In this document: positions 16,706-24,467 of the stretch, piece by piece
Layout: each line of letters opens with the position of its first letter
Numbering within the stretch: position 1 is the stretch's first letter
Virus record (IMG/VR): IMGVR_UViG_3300037225_000856
Location: 1-64,000 of that record
DNA length: 64,000 nt
Strand: one strand, 5' to 3'
Source: a virus
The notes under the pieces: model-generated
Databases searched by the model: none
What the model was told of the DNA's origin: nothing
What the model saw: only the letters and a program-made list of their open reading frames with translations
Program-made: the position numbers and the translations under genes

Positions 16706-17285
16706 CGGTGCAATTGTTATACAGGGTCAATCTGATTATGTTAATGAACTTAAAAAAGCATGGTCAGGAAATTCATTAATATGGTCAACATGGATAGGTA
16801 ATGAAAGTAAATATAATAAAGAAGATATTGTTGTATTTAATGAAATGCCTTCAGTACGTGGTGTTGGAAATGTTATGTTACAACAGAAAACAACATTAAA
16901 TGGCATATTAAAGGCAAAAGAATTAAAATATGAAAGAGTGTTGAAATGGAGAAGTGATATGATTCCAACAAATACCGATGAATTTGTTAAATTATTTCTT
17001 TTAAATGCAATAAATATGTTTTTTTTTCATGACAGTGGAGATTATTATGTTGATTATATAATGGAAGGGGAAACCGATAAAATATACGATATGTGGAATT
17101 TTACTAATATTAATGTATGGTGTGCCGAAATTGCATTAACTAATAATATTAGGAAAAAACAATTAAATAAAAACATTGAATTTTTTGGTAAAAATTTAAA
17201 TAATGTGAATGATGTTTTGTGGTTAAAAAAACAAATTAAATTATCAATATATAAAAATGATATTTGTTATGTTTACAAACAATAA
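16695..17285 (+). CDS. WavE-like polysaccharide biosynthesis protein
   Basis: 196 residues. IVIQGQSDYV begins the protein; GNVMLQQKTTLNGILKAKELKYERVLKWRSDMIP resembles the WavE family pattern (N-R-Q-x-x-S-T-x-x-G-L-x-x-A, then K-x-R-x-D), where RSD is the presumed nucleotide-sugar/metal site. Shorter than typical WavE proteins. It overlaps the 3,5-epimerase by 11 bp and the next gene by 17 bp. Assignment as a glycosyltransferase is moderately supported. Confidence 0.55.
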   Translation: MNYSGAIVIQGQSDYVNELKKAWSGNSLIWSTWIGNESKYNKEDIVVFNEMPSVRGVGNVMLQQKTTLNGILKAKELKYERVLKWRSDMIPTNTDEFVKLFLLNAINMFFFHDSGDYYVDYIMEGETDKIYDMWNFTNINVWCAEIALTNNIRKKQLNKNIEFFGKNLNNVNDVLWLKKQIKLSIYKNDICYVYKQ

Positions 17286-18009
17286 AATAAATATTGTAAT
17301 GCCAATGGCTGGTCGTGGCGGAAGATTTAGTCAATTTAATCTACCAAAACCACTCATAAAAATTGATGACAAAGCAATGGTTTGGCATGCTATTAATAGT
17401 TTAAAACTTGACGGAAATTATATATATATTACAAGAAAGTATGATGACCATTCATTAAATATTGAATTAAATAATATATTATCTGAAGTAACACCTGATT
17501 GTGATATAATTCAAATTAATCATGTGACTGAAGGTCCTGCTTGTAGTGTATTATTAGCAAAAGAATTAATTAATAATAACAAACCATTAATTATTACAAA
17601 TTGTGATAGAATATCCTATTGGAATTCTCAAGATTTTTTGAATGCTATAAATCAAGAAGATGTTGATGGTTTGGTAGTAACATGGAATAAAATTGCAACT
17701 ACTGAAAGTTTTATTGAATTGGATGAAAATGGATATGGAATAAGATTGGTTGAGAAAGAAATTATAAGTGACCAACCATTAAACGGAATACATTATTGGA
17801 AAATGGGAAAATATTTTGTAGAATCGGCAGAAAAAATGATTTTAAAAAACATTAGAATAAAAAATGAATTTTATGTTTCCATGACATATAATCAAATGAT
17901 TAATGATGGATATAAAATTAAAACATATAAATTAAAACCAAATCAGCATTTTTCTGTCGGTGACCCAGAAGATTTAAAAAAATATTTACAATGGAAAAAC
18001 TCAAAATAA
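17269..18009 (+). CDS. Sugar-phosphate nucleotidyltransferase
   Basis: About 246 residues. NIVMPMAGRGGRFSQ followed by LPKPLIKIDDKAMV is the NTP-binding signature of nucleotidyltransferases (GxGxRF...PKP). LIITNCDRI is the place of the metal-binding Asp (usually NGD/NCD). The enzyme would activate a sugar-1-phosphate or modified polyol phosphate with NTP. The start at 17269 (MFTNNKINIV) is preferred to 17257, although both overlap the previous gene. It stands immediately before the cupin and the RuBisCO-like gene, so these three may form one donor-making unit. Confidence 0.75.
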   Translation: MFTNNKINIVMPMAGRGGRFSQFNLPKPLIKIDDKAMVWHAINSLKLDGNYIYITRKYDDHSLNIELNNILSEVTPDCDIIQINHVTEGPACSVLLAKELINNNKPLIITNCDRISYWNSQDFLNAINQEDVDGLVVTWNKIATTESFIELDENGYGIRLVEKEIISDQPLNGIHYWKMGKYFVESAEKMILKNIRIKNEFYVSMTYNQMINDGYKIKTYKLKPNQHFSVGDPEDLKKYLQWKNSK

Positions 18010-18314
18010 GTGACATGAAGGGTGGATGGTTTGTTGGTGATTTTATGCCAACAGCATTTCATACAGAAAAATTTGAAGTTGGTTATCATAAATATAAGAA
18101 AGGTCAGCAATGGGATAAACATTATCATATGTTAACAACTGAGATAAATTATGTTATAAGTGGTCAAATGAAAATACATGGAGAATTACTTGAAGTTGGT
18201 GATATTTTCATAATATATCCTAACGAAATTGTTGAACCTGAGTATTTAACTGATTGTGAACTTATCATATCCAGAGACGGTTCATTTAAAAATGATAAAT
18301 ATGTTGTAAAATAA
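17991..18314 (+). CDS. Cupin-domain protein
   Basis: 107 residues, a single cupin barrel. Motif 1 is seen as KKGQQWDKHYHMLTTEINYVISGQM (two His, then Glu) and motif 2 as GDIFIIYPNEIVEPEYL, where the usual His is missing or displaced. Such small cupins act as sugar isomerases, epimerases or sensors in nucleotide-sugar pathways. It overlaps the nucleotidyltransferase by 19 bp and lies 5 bp before the RuBisCO-like gene, making a common pathway likely. Substrate unknown. Confidence 0.7.
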   Translation: MEKLKISDMKGGWFVGDFMPTAFHTEKFEVGYHKYKKGQQWDKHYHMLTTEINYVISGQMKIHGELLEVGDIFIIYPNEIVEPEYLTDCELIISRDGSFKNDKYVVK

Positions 18315-18319
18315 AAGAC

Positions 18320-19495
18320 ATGATATTTAAAGAGGAAATAAATAAAAATGACTATATTATAGTTAAATATTTTTTAGAATCAAAGACATCGTTAAGAACT
18401 GCAGCTTGGAGTTTAGCTATTGGTCAAAGTGTTGGTAATCCAAATGTTAGAAATAAGTGGGAAACAGATGAATTGTTTGAAAAATATTCAGCATTGGTAA
18501 TTGCTGATGAAGCCGAATTAAAATTACTTAAAAGAGGTATTGTAAATATAGCTTTTCCAAAAGTAAATATCGATTGGAATACAGATGGTATTTCACAATT
18601 ACTATGTTTTATAATGGGTGGTCAATTAGACATTGATGATATAATTAAATGTCATGTTTTGGATATTGAATTTCCTGACTCAATTGTTAATAATTTTAAG
18701 AAACCTAAGTTTGGTTTAACTGGATTTAGAGAATATACAAACACATATAATAAACCATTTTTTGGTGGTATTGTTAAGCCAAAGACTGGTATATCAAGTG
18801 GAGTATTATTGGATATGGTAAAGGAAATGGTTGATGGTGGTGTAAATTTTATAAAAGAAGATGAAATATTGGGAAATCCAGAATTCTGTAAAATAACTGA
18901 TAGAGTACCGAAAATAATGAATTATTTAATAGGAAAAAATGTGATATATTCCGTATGTATTAATTCAGACCCAATGTATGTGTTGAACAGGGTTAAAACC
19001 GTTTATTGTCTTGGTGGCAATTCAGTTCATATTAATTTTTGGTCTGGAATGGGTGTTTATAAATCTGTTAGAGATTTAGATTTACCAATTTTTATTCATT
19101 TTCAGAAAAGTGGTGATAAAATTTTAACAAGTAAAACACACGATTTTCATATTGATTGGTACGTGATATGTAAATTAGCATCATACATGGGCGTTGATTC
19201 AATTCATGCTGGCATGATTGGTGGTTATATGGACAATGATGAAGTTGAATTATTAAAAGCATTAAAGGTGTTGACCGAGAATAATGTTACCCCTGCACTT
19301 AGTTGTGGAATGCATCCGGGTTTGATTGAGTACATTAATAATAAAATTGGGGTAGATTATATGGCAAATGTTGGTGGTGCGTTACACGGGCATCCTAATG
19401 GTACATATGCTGGTTGTTTGGCAATGAGACAAGCAATTGATAAAACATATCGGAAAGAATATTATCTGGCAATTAAAACATGGGGAAAAAAATAA
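18320..19495 (+). CDS. RuBisCO-like protein (form IV-type) in a glycan operon
   Basis: 391 residues, full length for a RuBisCO large-chain homologue. The N-terminal domain has AAWSLAIGQSVGNP and LDIEFP; the barrel has GGIVKPKTGIS (K153, like K175 of RuBisCO), GGVNFIKEDE (K179, D181, E182 at the carbamylated Lys201, Asp203, Glu204 positions), IFIH (H260, like His294), DSIHAGMIGGY (H296, like His327), LSCGMH (S328, like Ser379) and VGGALHGHPNG. Two residues essential for carboxylation are replaced: Arg295 by F261 and Lys334 by Y303. Metal-enediolate chemistry is thus plausible but CO2 fixation is not. Known RuBisCO-like proteins act as enolases, isomerases or decarboxylases on phosphorylated or branched sugars. 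Residue matching was done by eye. Confidence 0.85.
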   Translation: MIFKEEINKNDYIIVKYFLESKTSLRTAAWSLAIGQSVGNPNVRNKWETDELFEKYSALVIADEAELKLLKRGIVNIAFPKVNIDWNTDGISQLLCFIMGGQLDIDDIIKCHVLDIEFPDSIVNNFKKPKFGLTGFREYTNTYNKPFFGGIVKPKTGISSGVLLDMVKEMVDGGVNFIKEDEILGNPEFCKITDRVPKIMNYLIGKNVIYSVCINSDPMYVLNRVKTVYCLGGNSVHINFWSGMGVYKSVRDLDLPIFIHFQKSGDKILTSKTHDFHIDWYVICKLASYMGVDSIHAGMIGGYMDNDEVELLKALKVLTENNVTPALSCGMHPGLIEYINNKIGVDYMANVGGALHGHPNGTYAGCLAMRQAIDKTYRKEYYLAIKTWGKK

Positions 19496-20221
19496 ATGGG
19501 AAATCTCGATTACATTAACAATGCATTTACTCCTGATGAATTAAAACATGGTTGTTTTAGAAATTGGGATGGTGTGTGTAATATATTAACATATTCATTT
19601 ATTACACATATGTCAAAGTATCTTAAATTCGATAACATTAAAGTTATTCTGGATATCGGTTCAAGGGATGCATGTCAAACATTAGAGTTTAACAGATGGT
19701 TTCCAAATACAAAGATTTATGCGTTTGAACCAGTACCATCTAATATTGCATGGTGTAGAAACACAACAAAAAACATTCCTAATATTACAATTATACCCAA
19801 AGCAGTTAGTTCATTTAATGGAAAATCTAAATTTTATGAAGTAATAAATGGTAACGTGGGAGCAAGTTCATTTTTATTAACCAGTGGTCACCCACGTTCA
19901 AGTGGATGGGCACAAAAAGAAATTGAAATTGAGTGTGTTAGATTGGAAGATTGGTTAAAAGAAAATAATATAAATAAAGTTGATTTAATTTGGGCAGATG
20001 TTCAAGGTGTTGAAAAACTTGTTTTTGAAGGCATGGGACATTTTTTGAATGATGTAGATGGTATCGCCACAGAGGTTGAACTTCAGGCATTATATAAAAA
20101 TGCCACAATGAAATCAGAATTGGATATATTATTGAATAAGAATTTTCACTTACTTGAATCGAAACCAGAACCACAGCAAACAGAAGCAGATGTAATTTAT
20201 GTAAATAAAAAATATTTATAA
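19496..20221 (+). CDS. FkbM family methyltransferase
   Basis: 241 residues. VILDIGSRDACQT is the SAM-binding motif I, YAFEPVPSN the acidic second motif, and VDLIWADVQGVEKLVFEGM the FkbM signature (DxQGxExxVxxG). The reaction should be O-methylation of a glycan residue. It abuts the RuBisCO-like gene with no spacer and overlaps the following gene by one base. It is only distantly similar to the FkbM gene at 7101 and is probably not a recent duplicate. Confidence 0.85.
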   Translation: MGNLDYINNAFTPDELKHGCFRNWDGVCNILTYSFITHMSKYLKFDNIKVILDIGSRDACQTLEFNRWFPNTKIYAFEPVPSNIAWCRNTTKNIPNITIIPKAVSSFNGKSKFYEVINGNVGASSFLLTSGHPRSSGWAQKEIEIECVRLEDWLKENNINKVDLIWADVQGVEKLVFEGMGHFLNDVDGIATEVELQALYKNATMKSELDILLNKNFHLLESKPEPQQTEADVIYVNKKYL

Positions 20222-20673
20222 TGAAATTTATTGCACATAGAGGTAACATTAATGGTGTTGAAATTGAAAAAGAAAATACGTTAGAATATATTGTTTCAGC
20301 AATAGAAGGGGGTTTTGATGTGGAAATTGATATGTGGTATAAAGATAATTCATTTTATTTGGGACACGATAATTTTGAGTATAAAATTTCATTAGCTTTT
20401 TTACAGCAATTTTCAGTGTTTCTTTGGTGTCATGCTAAAGATATTTATACTTTAAATGAATTATTAAAATATTTTGAAATTAATTGTTTTTTTCATCAAA
20501 ATGATAATTGTACATTAACATCACATAAATATATTTGGACGTATCCTGAAAAATCGTTGACAGAACGTTCAATATTACTTAAATTTGCAAAAGACGAGAA
20601 CTTTACAATACCGAAGAATATTTTTGGTATATGTAGCGATAACGTTGAATACTATAAAAACAAATTAATATGA
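20221..20673 (+). CDS. Glycerophosphodiester phosphodiesterase-like protein
   Basis: 150 residues. FIAHRGN near the start, ENTLEYIVSAIEGGFDVEIDMWY and FYLGHDN give the catalytic His-Arg, Glu and EID/GHD residues of the GDPD (PI-PLC-like) barrel. The protein is much shorter than complete GDPD enzymes (about 240-250 residues), so the barrel is abbreviated. Compact homologues of this type are found in viral and bacterial sugar loci, where they may cleave a glycerophospho-linked sugar. It overlaps both neighbours by up to 4 bp. Confidence 0.6.
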   Translation: MKFIAHRGNINGVEIEKENTLEYIVSAIEGGFDVEIDMWYKDNSFYLGHDNFEYKISLAFLQQFSVFLWCHAKDIYTLNELLKYFEINCFFHQNDNCTLTSHKYIWTYPEKSLTERSILLKFAKDENFTIPKNIFGICSDNVEYYKNKLI

Positions 20674-21686
20674 ATTTACTTATTGCATATGGAACTCGTC
20701 CTGAGTTTGTCAAAACTAAACCAATAATTAATGAATTGAATAAAAATAATTTTTTATTTAAAACATTATTTACTGGTCAACATGTGGATTTATTAAAAGA
20801 ATGTCCCGCAAATTATGTAACCAGCATCATTAATTCGGGTATTCAAGAGAATAGATTAGACGAAATCGTTCAATCAATAATGGGCGTGTTTACGGGAGCA
20901 AAAATGTTTTATGATAATATAACTCATGTAATGGTTCAGGGAGATACCACATCAGCAATGGCAATTGCATTATCTGCATATCATCATGGTATAAAAGTTA
21001 TTCATCTGGAAGCAGGACTTAGAACATATGATAAAAAAAATCCATATCCTGAAGAAGTAAACAGGAGAATTATTTCAGAAATTGCTGATATTCATTTATG
21101 TCCGACAGAATTAGCAAAACAAAATTTATTGAATGAAAGAATTGATGATGATATTTATGTGGTTGGCAACACAGTGATCGATAATTTATTATCTTATAAA
21201 GATAAATGTGAATATACTAATAAGATTTTAGTTACTCTACATAGGCGTGAGAATCATCACTGGATGGACAAATGGTTCATTGAATTAGATAATTTGGCTA
21301 AATTATATCCAGAATATGAATTTATTCTACCAATTCATCCTAATCCAAATGTACAAAAATGGAAGCATTTATTAAAGAATGTTGTGATTATTGACCCACT
21401 TCCATATGAGAAAATGCTTGATTTACTGGTTCAATGCAGACTTGTAATTACTGATAGTGGTGGACTTCAAGAAGAATCTTGCTTTTTCAATAAAAAATGT
21501 TTAACTTGCCGAATTGTAACAGAACGTCCAGAAGCAATTGGATTAAGCACTTTTATGGTTGAAAGACCAAATATGTTAATTGGGGCATTTATACATCACA
21601 TTAATAATTATAAAATAAATGTAGAATGTCCATTTGGTGATGGACATGCTGCAGAAAAAATAATGAAGATATTAAAAAATTTATAA
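20670..21686 (+). CDS. wecB: UDP-N-acetylglucosamine 2-epimerase
   Basis: 338 residues, slightly shorter than usual (about 370). YGTRPEFVKTKP (family GTRPExIKxxP), LFTGQHVDLL, VMVQGDTTSAMAIALSAYHHGIKVIHLEAGLRT, PEEVNRRIISEIADIHLCPT, VVGNTVIDNL, THPxxxRE-like LHRRENH and ITDSGGLQEES occur in the standard order of the WecB/MnaA GT-B fold enzyme. It converts UDP-GlcNAc to UDP-ManNAc, giving an N-acetylmannosamine donor for the glycan. Confidence 0.88.
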   Translation: MNLLIAYGTRPEFVKTKPIINELNKNNFLFKTLFTGQHVDLLKECPANYVTSIINSGIQENRLDEIVQSIMGVFTGAKMFYDNITHVMVQGDTTSAMAIALSAYHHGIKVIHLEAGLRTYDKKNPYPEEVNRRIISEIADIHLCPTELAKQNLLNERIDDDIYVVGNTVIDNLLSYKDKCEYTNKILVTLHRRENHHWMDKWFIELDNLAKLYPEYEFILPIHPNPNVQKWKHLLKNVVIIDPLPYEKMLDLLVQCRLVITDSGGLQEESCFFNKKCLTCRIVTERPEAIGLSTFMVERPNMLIGAFIHHINNYKINVECPFGDGHAAEKIMKILKNL

Positions 21687-22468
21687 TGAAAAAAGTATTA
21701 GTAATTGGTGACGGTTGCAAAGATGTGTTTCAATATGGAAAGTGTGAAAGGTTAAGTCCTGAAGCACCAGTACCTATATTTAAACCAACAAAAGCAAATA
21801 ATAATGGTGGCATGGCAGTGAATGTTTATAATAATCTTAAAGCATTAGGTGTTGAATGCGATATTTTAACCGAAAGCGGTATTACAAAAACCCGTTATGT
21901 TGATGAAATCAGTAATCAAATGCTACTCCGAGTTGATGAAAATGATATGATTTTTACGAGTCCAAGAATGTATGATAAAATCATGAATTTTGATTATAGT
22001 GCATATGATGCAGTAGTTATATCTGATTATGATAAAGGTTTATTAAGTGAAAAAATGATTAAACGTATTGCAATTAGCAATCCATTGACGTTCATGGATA
22101 CCAAGAAGAATATTAGCAATTGGGCAACATTTATAAAATTCATTAAAATAAATAAAAAAGAGTTTGATCAAAATGAAGGTTATTTAACACTTCATTTTCC
22201 AAATGACGTTATTGTGACATTAGGTGAAGCTGGTGCGATGCGTTATTATAATGATAATGGCGCATGTAGAACTGAGATGTATCCAAATGTTAATGAACAT
22301 CCTGTACGTGATCTTACAGGTGCAGGTGATACTTTTTTTGCAGGACTTGTTGCGAAATTCATAGAAAATAACGATATTTGTGATGCAATTATATTTGCAA
22401 ACAAATGTGCTGCTTGGGCAGTAACGCAAAAAGGTGTGGCAGTGGTTGATAGATATAAAATTAAATAA
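21686..22468 (+). CDS. PfkB-type heptose-7-phosphate kinase-like (HldA/HldE N-domain)
   Basis: 260 residues. VIGDGCKDVFQYGKCERLSPEAPVPIF matches the HldE/HldA opening (VVGDxxxDxYxxGxxxRxSPEAPVP), then NNGGMAVNVYNNLKALG, TKTRYVDEISNQMLLRVD, VISDYDKGLL, and the anion-hole motif LTGAGDTFFAGL. The role would be phosphorylation of D-glycero-D-manno-heptose-7-phosphate. It is about 50-60 residues shorter than cellular enzymes, with a deletion between the LG...E segment and TKTRY. It overlaps the 2-epimerase stop by one base and leads the heptose gene group. Confidence 0.72.
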   Translation: MKKVLVIGDGCKDVFQYGKCERLSPEAPVPIFKPTKANNNGGMAVNVYNNLKALGVECDILTESGITKTRYVDEISNQMLLRVDENDMIFTSPRMYDKIMNFDYSAYDAVVISDYDKGLLSEKMIKRIAISNPLTFMDTKKNISNWATFIKFIKINKKEFDQNEGYLTLHFPNDVIVTLGEAGAMRYYNDNGACRTEMYPNVNEHPVRDLTGAGDTFFAGLVAKFIENNDICDAIIFANKCAAWAVTQKGVAVVDRYKIK

Positions 22469-22469
22469 T

Positions 22470-22847
22470 ATGATAGAAATTACACATGTAACAAATAAAA
22501 AAATACACGTACCGAAAGCATGGGGCGAAGAAGTTATTATTCACAATGGAGAAGATTATTGTGGAAAATTATTGCGTTTTAGAAAAGGTGGTATGTTCAG
22601 CCTACATTTTCATTCTTTAAAGACGGAATCATTTTATGTTAATAAAGGTATTTTTAACTTAACCACAATTGATACAAGAACTGCTGCAAGACAGCATATT
22701 AGTCTTGTAGAAGGAGATATTATTCATATTGAACGCAATACTCCACATCAACTGGAAGCACTTGAAGAAAGTGAAATATTTGAAGTAAGCACACCACATA
22801 ATGATAATGATAGTTATAGAATAGAGAAAGGAGATAGTCAATGTTAA
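22470..22847 (+). CDS. Cupin-domain protein, mannose-6-phosphate isomerase-like
   Basis: 125 residues. KAWGEEVIIHNGEDYCGKLLRF, FSLHFHSLKTESFYV and GDIIHIERNTPHQLEAL give both cupin motifs with the expected His/Glu/His metal ligands. KxWGxE near the N-terminus resembles the C-terminal domain of type II mannose-6-phosphate isomerase/GDP-mannose pyrophosphorylase. The start at 22470 is preferred over 22434, which lies inside the kinase gene. It sits between the heptose kinase and HAD genes. The substrate is not known. Confidence 0.68.
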   Translation: MIEITHVTNKKIHVPKAWGEEVIIHNGEDYCGKLLRFRKGGMFSLHFHSLKTESFYVNKGIFNLTTIDTRTAARQHISLVEGDIIHIERNTPHQLEALEESEIFEVSTPHNDNDSYRIEKGDSQC

Positions 22848-23131
22848 TTTACGTAGATATTGATAACACAATTTGTACAACTATTGATAGTGATTATAAG
22901 AATTCCAAACCGATTCAAGAAAATATTGATAAAATAAATCGACTTTATAATGAAGGCAATACGATTGTTTATTGGACTGCTCGTGGCAGAGTTACACGTA
23001 AAAATTGGTCAATTTTAACTCGTAAACAACTGAGAGATTGGGGATGTTTGCATCATAAACTAGATATGAGTAGCAAACCTGCATATGATAGAATTATCGA
23101 TGATAAAGCGTTTAAAATTAATGAATTATGA
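22841..23131 (+). CDS. Small HAD-family phosphatase
   Basis: 96 residues. YVDIDNTICT carries the nucleophile and acid Asp (DxDxT), IVYWTARG has the motif II Thr, and YDRIIDDKA the motif III/IV Asp pair. Compact HAD proteins of this size occur in capsule and LPS loci. Between a heptose kinase-like and a nucleotidyltransferase-like gene it could remove the 7-phosphate as GmhB does, but it is much shorter than GmhB (about 190 residues), so this is an inference. It overlaps both neighbours by 4-7 bp. Confidence 0.7.
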   Translation: MLIYVDIDNTICTTIDSDYKNSKPIQENIDKINRLYNEGNTIVYWTARGRVTRKNWSILTRKQLRDWGCLHHKLDMSSKPAYDRIIDDKAFKINEL

Positions 23132-23562
23132 ATATTTGGACTAATGGTTGTTTTGACATCTTACATACAGGGCATATTGAGTTATTGAATTATGCAAAGA
23201 TGTTTAATCCAGATTTTGAAATATTTTATACACCACTTATTGTTCACAACACTTTATTTGTTGGACTTGATAGTGATGAAAGAGTTAAAAATTTAAAAGG
23301 AGATAAACGACCAATAAATGACATTGACACACGTTTAACAATAATGCGTAATTTGAGAATGGTTGATGAAGTATTTATATTTAATACAGATGATGAACTG
23401 CGACAATTAGTTAAAGAATTGAGTATTGATTATATGATTGTTGGTAATCAATATCAAGATAAAGAAGTAATTGGACATGAGAATTCGAAATATGGTGTAA
23501 TCTATTATAAAGTAGACGAGAGGTCAACAACAAATATTATTGAAAAAATTAAAAATTCATGA
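23128..23562 (+). CDS. Cytidylyltransferase-like nucleotidyltransferase (HldE C-domain/HldC-like)
   Basis: 144 residues. NGCFDILHTGHIELL contains the HxGH nucleotide-binding motif in the form typical of RfaE/HldE C-terminal domains. FVGLDSDERVKNLKGDKRPIND and TRLTIMRNLRMVDEVFIF follow, then STTNIIEKI. An insertion (IFYTPLIVHNT) separates the first helix from the GLDSDE strand. It probably adenylylates heptose-1-phosphate, giving ADP-heptose. It overlaps the HAD gene and the epimerase by 4 bp each. Confidence 0.78.
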   Translation: MNIWTNGCFDILHTGHIELLNYAKMFNPDFEIFYTPLIVHNTLFVGLDSDERVKNLKGDKRPINDIDTRLTIMRNLRMVDEVFIFNTDDELRQLVKELSIDYMIVGNQYQDKEVIGHENSKYGVIYYKVDERSTTNIIEKIKNS

Positions 23563-24467
23563 TAGTAGTAACAGGTGGTGAAGGATTTATTGGCAAAAAT
23601 CTTGTTAAAGAGTTGGAAAGACAGGGCAATATTGGTGTTGTAAGTCTTGATACAAAAACCGAAAATCTTGGTTTTATTTATTCTTGGCTTTTAACCTATG
23701 CTGATCAAATTGATTGTATATTTCACCTTGGAGCAATTACCGATACTACTGAAATGAATAAGAGTTTATTCGATGAATATAATGTTGAATCTTCAATTTT
23801 TATCTGGAATTTATGTTCAGATTGGGGTATACCATTGATTTATGCAAGTTCTGCAGCAACATATGGTGATGGTAAAGAAGGATTTGATGATGAGAAGGAT
23901 ATTATTAATCTTAAACCATTAAATCCATATGGCTGGTCAAAACAACAATTTGATATATGGGCAGAAATTCAAGAGCAACAACCACCAAACTGGTATGGTC
24001 TGAAGTTTTTCAATGTATACGGGTATGGAGAAGCACAGAAAGGTAAAATGGCATCAGTTGCTTTTCACATGTTCAATCAGATTGACGAATCAAAAAAAGT
24101 TAAATTATTCAAATCACATCGTCCAGATTATGAAAACGGTGAACAAAAAAGAGATTTCATTTATATTGATGATATAGTTGATGTTTGTTTATTTTTATAC
24201 GATAAAAAACCACTTTCAGGTATTTATAATGTAGGTACTGGAAAAGCACGTACATTTAATGATCTTGGCAGCGCAGTTTTTAAAAGTCTTGATATTCCGC
24301 TTTTAATTGATTATATTGACACTCCGATTTTAATCAGAGATAAATATCAATATTTTACTGAAGCTAAGATTAATAAGTTGAGGATGACTGGTTATAAAAA
24401 ACCTTTTAGTGAGTTAGAAGATGGTATTTCGAAATATATAAATAAATTAAATGATAAAACTTGCTAA
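23559..24467 (+). CDS. hldD: ADP-L-glycero-D-manno-heptose 6-epimerase
   Basis: 302 residues. IVVTGGEGFIGKNL, HLGAITDTTEMN (family GAxSxTTExD), YASSAATYGDG, NPYGWSKQQFD, FFNVYGYGEAQKGKMASVAFHMFNQ, LFKSHRP, RDFIYIDDIVDV, NVGTGKARTFNDL and YQYFTEAKINKLRMTGY match HldD almost motif for motif. The enzyme inverts C6 of ADP-D-glycero-heptose, using tightly bound NADP. Its location directly after the kinase, phosphatase and nucleotidyltransferase makes an ADP-heptose pathway very likely. The sedoheptulose-7-phosphate isomerase GmhA is not seen in this window. Confidence 0.88.
   Translation: MIVVTGGEGFIGKNLVKELERQGNIGVVSLDTKTENLGFIYSWLLTYADQIDCIFHLGAITDTTEMNKSLFDEYNVESSIFIWNLCSDWGIPLIYASSAATYGDGKEGFDDEKDIINLKPLNPYGWSKQQFDIWAEIQEQQPPNWYGLKFFNVYGYGEAQKGKMASVAFHMFNQIDESKKVKLFKSHRPDYENGEQKRDFIYIDDIVDVCLFLYDKKPLSGIYNVGTGKARTFNDLGSAVFKSLDIPLLIDYIDTPILIRDKYQYFTEAKINKLRMTGYKKPFSELEDGISKYINKLNDKTC

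Follow-up and report, generated by a model that had tools for sequence, protein, structure and literature searches.

Known RuBisCO-like proteins serve salvage and catabolism. The methionine-salvage enolase MtnW (2,3-diketo-5-methylthiopentyl-1-phosphate enolase, form IV-YkrW) has the RuBisCO fold, the Lys/Asp/Glu metal triad and K175, and uses them for non-carboxylating, enolase-type chemistry on a monophosphate substrate. OiaX and the RuBisCO-like proteins that adjoin four-carbon acid sugar kinases are likewise form IV proteins with the metal site and K175, and they work in catabolic operons on short sugar-derived phosphates. RuBisCO homologues that fit no known form were already present in the Sorcerer II ocean data of 2007, according to the accessible part of that report (PMC1821046), and a form IV-GOS is named in the accessible part of a later paper (PMC10173188).

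Viruses also carry genes of this family, which have been reported as carbon-fixation genes (PMC12607003, PMC8506154, PMC12615777). As far as the available text of these papers goes, one viral sequence is called ‘RbcL-like’ and rbcL is also seen in a random IMG/VR sample (PMC12607003), and the activity of one viral rbcL, which may well encode a true RuBisCO, has been assayed (PMC12615777). The protein analyzed here, a RuBisCO-like protein (RLP) encoded in a 64,000-nucleotide stretch of viral DNA (the window), resembles these in being a RuBisCO-family protein from a viral contig. Compared by description only, they differ in that carbon fixation is the reported role, and the available text describes no cassette of nucleotidyltransferase, cupin and glycerophosphodiester phosphodiesterase (GDPD).

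The phage locus and its RuBisCO-fold protein

RLP lies in an operon that runs in one direction through the window:

17257..18009, + strand: NT, a MobA/RmlA-like sugar-phosphate nucleotidyltransferase of 250 aa, which accompanies RLP more constantly than any other gene
17991..18314, + strand: CU, a small cupin of 107 aa directly upstream of RLP, with an invariant HxH...E metal motif
18320..19495, + strand: RLP, 391 aa, with the metal site K179, D181, E182 and K153/K155 retained and the carboxylation residues gone
19496..20221, + strand: FkbM-family methyltransferase between RLP and GD, a variable accessory slot often filled by other methyltransferases
20221..20673, + strand: GD, a compact GDPD-like protein of 150 aa with invariant H6 R7, E35, D37 and H49
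20670..24467, + strand: glycan genes that are context and not core (UDP-GlcNAc 2-epimerase, PfkB/heptose-kinase-like, cupin, small HAD, heptose-1-P adenylyltransferase-like and ADP-heptose epimerase-like)

The genes of ADP-heptose type (kinase-like, adenylyltransferase-like and epimerase) occupy 21686-24467 of the same phage island.

The RLP reading frame is intact, starts with ATG and spans exactly 18320-19495. Both Pfam domains of the RuBisCO large chain score above their gathering cut-offs: RuBisCO_large (PF00016) at 2.7e-31 with 109.4 bits against 30.1, and RuBisCO_large_N (PF02788) at 1.8e-4 with 22.2 bits against 20.7. An AlphaFold2 model built with 48 relatives in the alignment (mean pLDDT 94.4) has the RuBisCO fold, and type III RuBisCOs rank first when the model is searched with Foldseek (3a12, E 8e-31, TM 0.88). 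Profile search and structural overlay, both proposed as checks in a preliminary description made from the DNA letters, thus place RLP inside the RuBisCO large-chain superfamily, as that description had claimed. The top NCBIfam match is TIGR03326 rubisco_III (1.2e-47), scoring 162.8 bits where the cut-off is 497, and all NCBIfam equivalogs (type III RuBisCO, MtnW, OiaX and others) score RLP far under their cut-offs; RLP thus belongs to the superfamily but to none of its named equivalogs. The archaeal type III RuBisCOs (3a12, 8dht, 1geh) have the nearest fold (TM 0.88-0.90) and share with RLP the metal site, K175, K177, S379, G381 and G403, but RLP is shorter, about 23% identical and lacks the carboxylation residues. 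The top PDB match by single-sequence search is MtnW (2oej/2oek), and the Chlorobium RuBisCO-like protein (1ykw/1tel) is a weaker match by both fold and profile. A fold search of the BFVD viral structure library with RLP returned zero RuBisCO-fold viral proteins.

The window belongs to a 112,403-base virus record in IMG/VR that carries a T4-type baseplate wedge, a tail spike, a primase/helicase, HNH and homing endonucleases and a RecA-like gene. The record is incomplete and a large terminase was not found in it; a terminase is present in seven of the eight other RLP-carrying viral records tested. Relatives of RLP are encoded at no fewer than 331 IMG/VR loci, 80 of which were retained for analysis with 12 from another, partly overlapping search. 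Because phage genes lie on the record itself, terminases on other RLP records and RLP relatives at so many viral loci, a chimera with bacterial DNA is not a sensible explanation, and the claim that RLP is truly joined to phage genes holds. An alignment-based scan of genome contigs found RLP relatives on 22 bacterial or archaeal contigs, and a single-sequence scan of the same contigs found none; no relative was found among the INPHARED phages. Since these scans used degenerate peptide patterns, the counts are lower bounds and the viral-to-cellular ratio is approximate, but similar scans yielding no fewer than 331 loci in viruses and 22 contigs from cells suggest that phages may be the main carriers of the family. 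Within cellular families the gene is sparse: 4 of the 112 genomes in the family to which a Legionella genome belongs have it, as do 2 of 297 in that of a SAR11 genome. RLP also occurs on a very large viral contig of 518,643 bases that carries a terminase (L057), and on two contigs binned, as given, as DPANN-type archaea (L106 and L098), in the first of which NT adjoins it.

Residue pattern and phylogenetic position

Residues were read from an alignment of 113 clade members to references that included forms I-III, and are numbered by their RuBisCO positions. The clade retains K175, K177, K201, D203, E204, S379, G381 and G403. Every member has Gly for E60, Gly for N123, Asn for T65, Gln for H294 (Q262 in RLP) and Tyr for K334 (Y303), while Lys replaces R295 (K263) in 99 of the 113 and Asp replaces H298 (D266) in 98. 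The residues by which carboxylating RuBisCO is recognized (E60, N123, H294, K334, R295 and H298) are thus G, G, Q, Y, K and D in this clade, invariant or nearly so. By this pattern, the metal site and the enolization lysines remain, and the residues for gas addition and for the distal phosphate are gone. Because G381 and G403 on the P1 side are retained, R295 and H298 on the P2 side are replaced and NT needs one phosphate, the substrate would carry a single phosphate. Seven further residues (N40, P41, R44, G101, H237, N239 and C329) are invariant and new in this clade, and are candidates for contacts to the substrate or for structural roles. Amino-acid change in RLP is strongly constrained: in the three least saturated pairs dN/dS is 0.02-0.05, synonymous differences far outnumbering amino-acid differences, as expected under strong purifying selection.

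The preliminary description had read K175, K201, D203, E204, S379 and the change of K334 to Tyr correctly, but it erred in counting H294 as kept and in giving Phe for R295. Its ‘His294’ is H260, two residues before the true position, and profile alignments to 8dht and 3nwr agree with placing H294 at Q262; the position of R295 holds Lys. H327, which it also listed as kept, is His in 97 of the 113 sequences but Gln in 16. The invariant changes at E60, T65 and N123 were not on its list. Its prediction that RLP does not carboxylate, now almost certain, is supported by the loss of E60, N123, H294, R295, H298 and K334 and by a tree that places RLP outside forms I-III.

In that tree, whose references were forms I, II and III, MtnW, OiaX and the proteins adjoining four-carbon acid sugar kinases (references for IV-Photo, IV-NonPhoto and IV-GOS being left out), the phage and cellular RLPs form a single clade with 100/100 support. 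The clade lies on the form IV side, opposite the carboxylating forms I-III, and is separate from MtnW and OiaX (100/100). As a homologue outside forms I-III in which the carboxylation residues are replaced, RLP is a form-IV-type enzyme in the broad sense and belongs to a distinct, mainly phage-borne clade. MtnW differs from it in keeping H294, in having Lys at N123 and in having lost K177, which RLP keeps; OiaX and the kinase-adjoining proteins differ in keeping H294, R295 and K334. The novel homologues of the ocean data and form IV-GOS may be the same clade as the phage RLPs, a likeness by description only: both are marine metagenomic RuBisCO homologues with function unassigned, but neither phage nor operon context is given in the accessible parts of those papers (PMC1821046, PMC10173188).

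The cassette and its apparently exchangeable front ends

Four genes recur together. Within 12 genes of RLP at 114 loci (a few near-copies and the window itself, L013, included), NT is found at 101, GD at 89 and CU at 74, and the cupin stands directly upstream of RLP at 65. When the loci are dereplicated to 69 and the span narrowed to six genes, the counts are 64 for NT, 49 for GD and 48 for CU, with CU directly upstream of RLP at 42. A six-frame HMM search found NT at 20 of the 22 cellular loci, the remaining two being short or cut-off contigs. NT is beside RLP in phages, SAR11, Legionella, Elusimicrobia, Azospirillum and archaea, and the order GD-RLP-CU-NT, with all four adjacent, is found at deep-branching loci of Azospirillum (followed by a gene that looks CysN-type) and Elusimicrobia (amid genes that look phosphoheptose isomerase-, epimerase- and HldE-like), both contexts being read by eye. 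This spread from phages to bacteria and archaea argues that the four genes form one pathway. CU and GD are absent beside the Legionella RLPs.

The cassette of RLP, NT, small cupin and GD, which phages share with Azospirillum and Elusimicrobia, is new here. No paper describing it, or linking RuBisCO-like proteins to O-antigen, was found in the open-access literature searched. The claim of novelty made earlier has to be narrowed, as viral RuBisCO-family sequences (PMC12607003, PMC12615777, PMC8506154) and novel homologue groups (PMC1821046) had already been reported. The neighbors first described (nucleotidyltransferase, cupin, FkbM methyltransferase and sugar epimerases) were confirmed. The view that RLP belongs to an operon for sugar activation and is no mere passenger was supported by the conservation of that operon in phages, bacteria and archaea. 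Calling the glycan ‘phage-directed’ proved too narrow, because the same operon also sits on contigs of bacteria and archaea, some of them plainly chromosomal.

NT is MobA/RmlA/IspD-like, with 4evw as its nearest solved structure (8e-35). GD, at 20221-20673, is the more informative partner and had been overlooked in the preliminary description. Its invariant residues match the GDPD catalytic pattern HR...E...ExD...H, and the first third of the protein has a profile match to the GDPD structure 7e0v (1.7e-4). The model is confident (pLDDT 97) and its top GDPD fold match, 2pz0, is weak (Foldseek E 0.025, prob 0.94); Pfam gives no GDPD match worth counting and places GD in no family. Most likely, GD is a GDPD-like phosphodiesterase or lyase in a shortened form. 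The GD family is present in at least 576 IMG/VR stretches, is common in phage sugar clusters and is annotated as ‘hypothetical’ in most cyanophages.

Two local variants were seen. A divergent LicD-like gene adjoins the RLP-NT pair in three Legionella species (L109, L111, L112), where GD and CU are missing, and a role in phospho-transfer of the product is possible; as it stands beside only these three RLPs, a LicD-type transferase was rejected as a general partner. At six SAR11 loci (L099-L103, L105) two diverged NTs flank RLP in the order GD-NT-RLP-NT, an arrangement that points to either a second activation step or a second product.

NT, GD and CU are also found at loci lacking RLP, where HAD or PfkB and KdsC-like genes accompany them. 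Of 80 GD loci in viruses, 68 have NT and 10 have RLP; the 70 without RLP have a HAD at 36, PfkB at 11 and a KdsC-like HAD at 10, whereas at 113 RLP loci PfkB and KdsC-like genes are never found and HAD is found at 16. NT, mostly together with GD, is also present in cultured cyanophages. In Synechococcus phage S-SKS1, NT is fused to RibB (AGH31555.1, L217:6001-7428; PF00926, 5.4e-65), a fusion annotated as DHBP synthase alone, and in cyanophage DSL-LC03 a HAD is fused to NT. HAD-NT fusions are at L218:1797-3182 (cyanophage) and L040:4602-5975 (RLP-carrying viral contigs). One RLP locus, L059, carries a RibB 57% identical to that of S-SKS1; RibB was rejected as a common partner, being present at 1 of 113 RLP loci. 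A cyanophage gene of 103 aa, considered as a cupin, was also rejected, as Pfam shows a HAD-type domain.

The lineage of NT follows the front-end gene. Front-end labels change 8 times on the NT tree against 39.5 times in shuffles, none of 200 shuffles being as low, and the PfkB-linked NTs form one clade. This is as expected if NT acts on the product of the front-end enzyme, although linked inheritance could in part contribute to the clustering.

Proposed function and alternative readings

We consider it probable that the sugar phosphate activated by NT is made by RLP or with its help, RLP carrying out a metal-assisted enolization step in a four-gene pathway and not CO2 fixation. The step would be an isomerization, an epimerization or a rearrangement started by enolization, in which RLP and the cupin may convert a ketose monophosphate to a sugar phosphate of unusual keto or rearranged structure. 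NT would attach a nucleotide to this product, and glycosyltransferases would then build the activated sugar into a surface or virion glycan. GD might cleave or transfer a phosphodiester in the product once this is activated or attached, which, like the role of the cupin, is a guess. Since NT and GD belong to sugar clusters in general and are also found without RLP, their linkage shows a shared module and not the order of the steps.

RibB converts ribulose 5-phosphate by way of an enediol. The NT-RibB fusion of S-SKS1 has the same NT family as the RLP cassette and a partner with this enediol chemistry, but the partner has the DHBP synthase fold and the phage lacks an RLP relative. By this analogy, our best guess for the substrate of RLP is a ketose monophosphate made from ribulose or xylulose 5-phosphate. 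More tentatively, and with somewhat less than even confidence, these observations might reflect a modular, largely viral pathway in which interchangeable front ends (RLP, RibB, HAD, PfkB), each with a matching version of NT and with GD and the cupin as helpers, make a family of sugars, keto or rearranged in structure and activated by a nucleotide, that biochemistry does not yet know; in such a pathway glycan biosynthesis would have recruited the RuBisCO fold.

Among the alternatives, the best placed is that RLP resembles OiaX and decarboxylates an oxo-sugar-acid phosphate to provide the phosphate for NT. OiaX and the kinase-adjoining proteins are form IV enzymes whose substrates are sugar-acid phosphates, and OiaX shares Gly at N123 with the RLP clade. 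The clade is nevertheless separate, it lacks the H294, R295 and K334 of OiaX, RLP scores 123 bits against the OiaX cut-off of 700, and a sugar-acid kinase or dehydrogenase was not recognized beside RLP in the loci examined; we regard this reading as unlikely. Less plausible still is that the cassette makes and breaks a nucleotide-linked small molecule, such as a signal or an anti-defense compound, which NT would build and GD remove. NT and the phosphodiesterase-like gene are found together more regularly than any other two genes (68 of 80 GD loci) and the set is mostly phage-borne, but its neighbors are glycosyltransferases, methyltransferases, epimerases and heptose genes, and the bacterial copies lie in regions of surface-glycan type.

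Only slightly behind in plausibility is the view that RLP is chance cargo of variable islands with no pathway tie to NT, CU and GD. Hypervariable glycan islands do shuffle genes, and RLP is in few GD loci and few genomes of the SAR11 family; against this, NT accompanies RLP across phages, bacteria and archaea, its lineage tracks the front-end gene and RLP is under strong purifying selection, which makes mere carriage improbable. A methionine-salvage enolase like MtnW, or a methylthioribulose-phosphate isomerase, is very improbable. MtnW heads the single-sequence PDB matches and falls on the same side of the tree, but in a separate 100/100 clade with Lys where RLP has Gly at N123, and RLP scores 127 bits against 514 for TIGR03332 and 147 against 409 for PRK09549. 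Methionine-salvage partners are missing as well: no MtnA-family gene was found in nine RLP-carrying viral records, and no class II aldolase near RLPs. That RLP is an active viral RuBisCO raising host CO2 fixation during infection, as viral rbcL genes have been reported to be, one with assayed activity (PMC12615777, PMC12607003, PMC8506154), is hardly credible given six replaced residues, most of them in all 113 sequences, a clade outside forms I-III, a sugar-activation operon, and neither a small subunit (RbcS) nor phosphoribulokinase (PRK) found in the same nine records.

If the proposed enolization of a sugar phosphate is correct, a biosynthetic role in making activated sugars would be a new use of the RuBisCO fold. 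When viral contigs are annotated automatically, a glycan enzyme can be labeled ‘rbcL’ and so be taken for a carbon-fixation gene, and claims of carbon fixation are now being published. Because the RLP clade has lost the carbon-fixing parts and travels with sugar-activation genes, viral ‘RuBisCO’ genes of the RLP type ought to be left out of tallies of carbon fixation. The four-gene operon is a short, expressible set with which the reaction could be found.

Apart from the cassette, an Rfam scan of 10000-45000 of the window returned tRNA only. In the phage contig, a 1036-aa reading frame (L134:14755-17865) has profile matches to tRNA nucleotidyltransferase and RNA ligase, and may encode an RNA-repair fusion protein.
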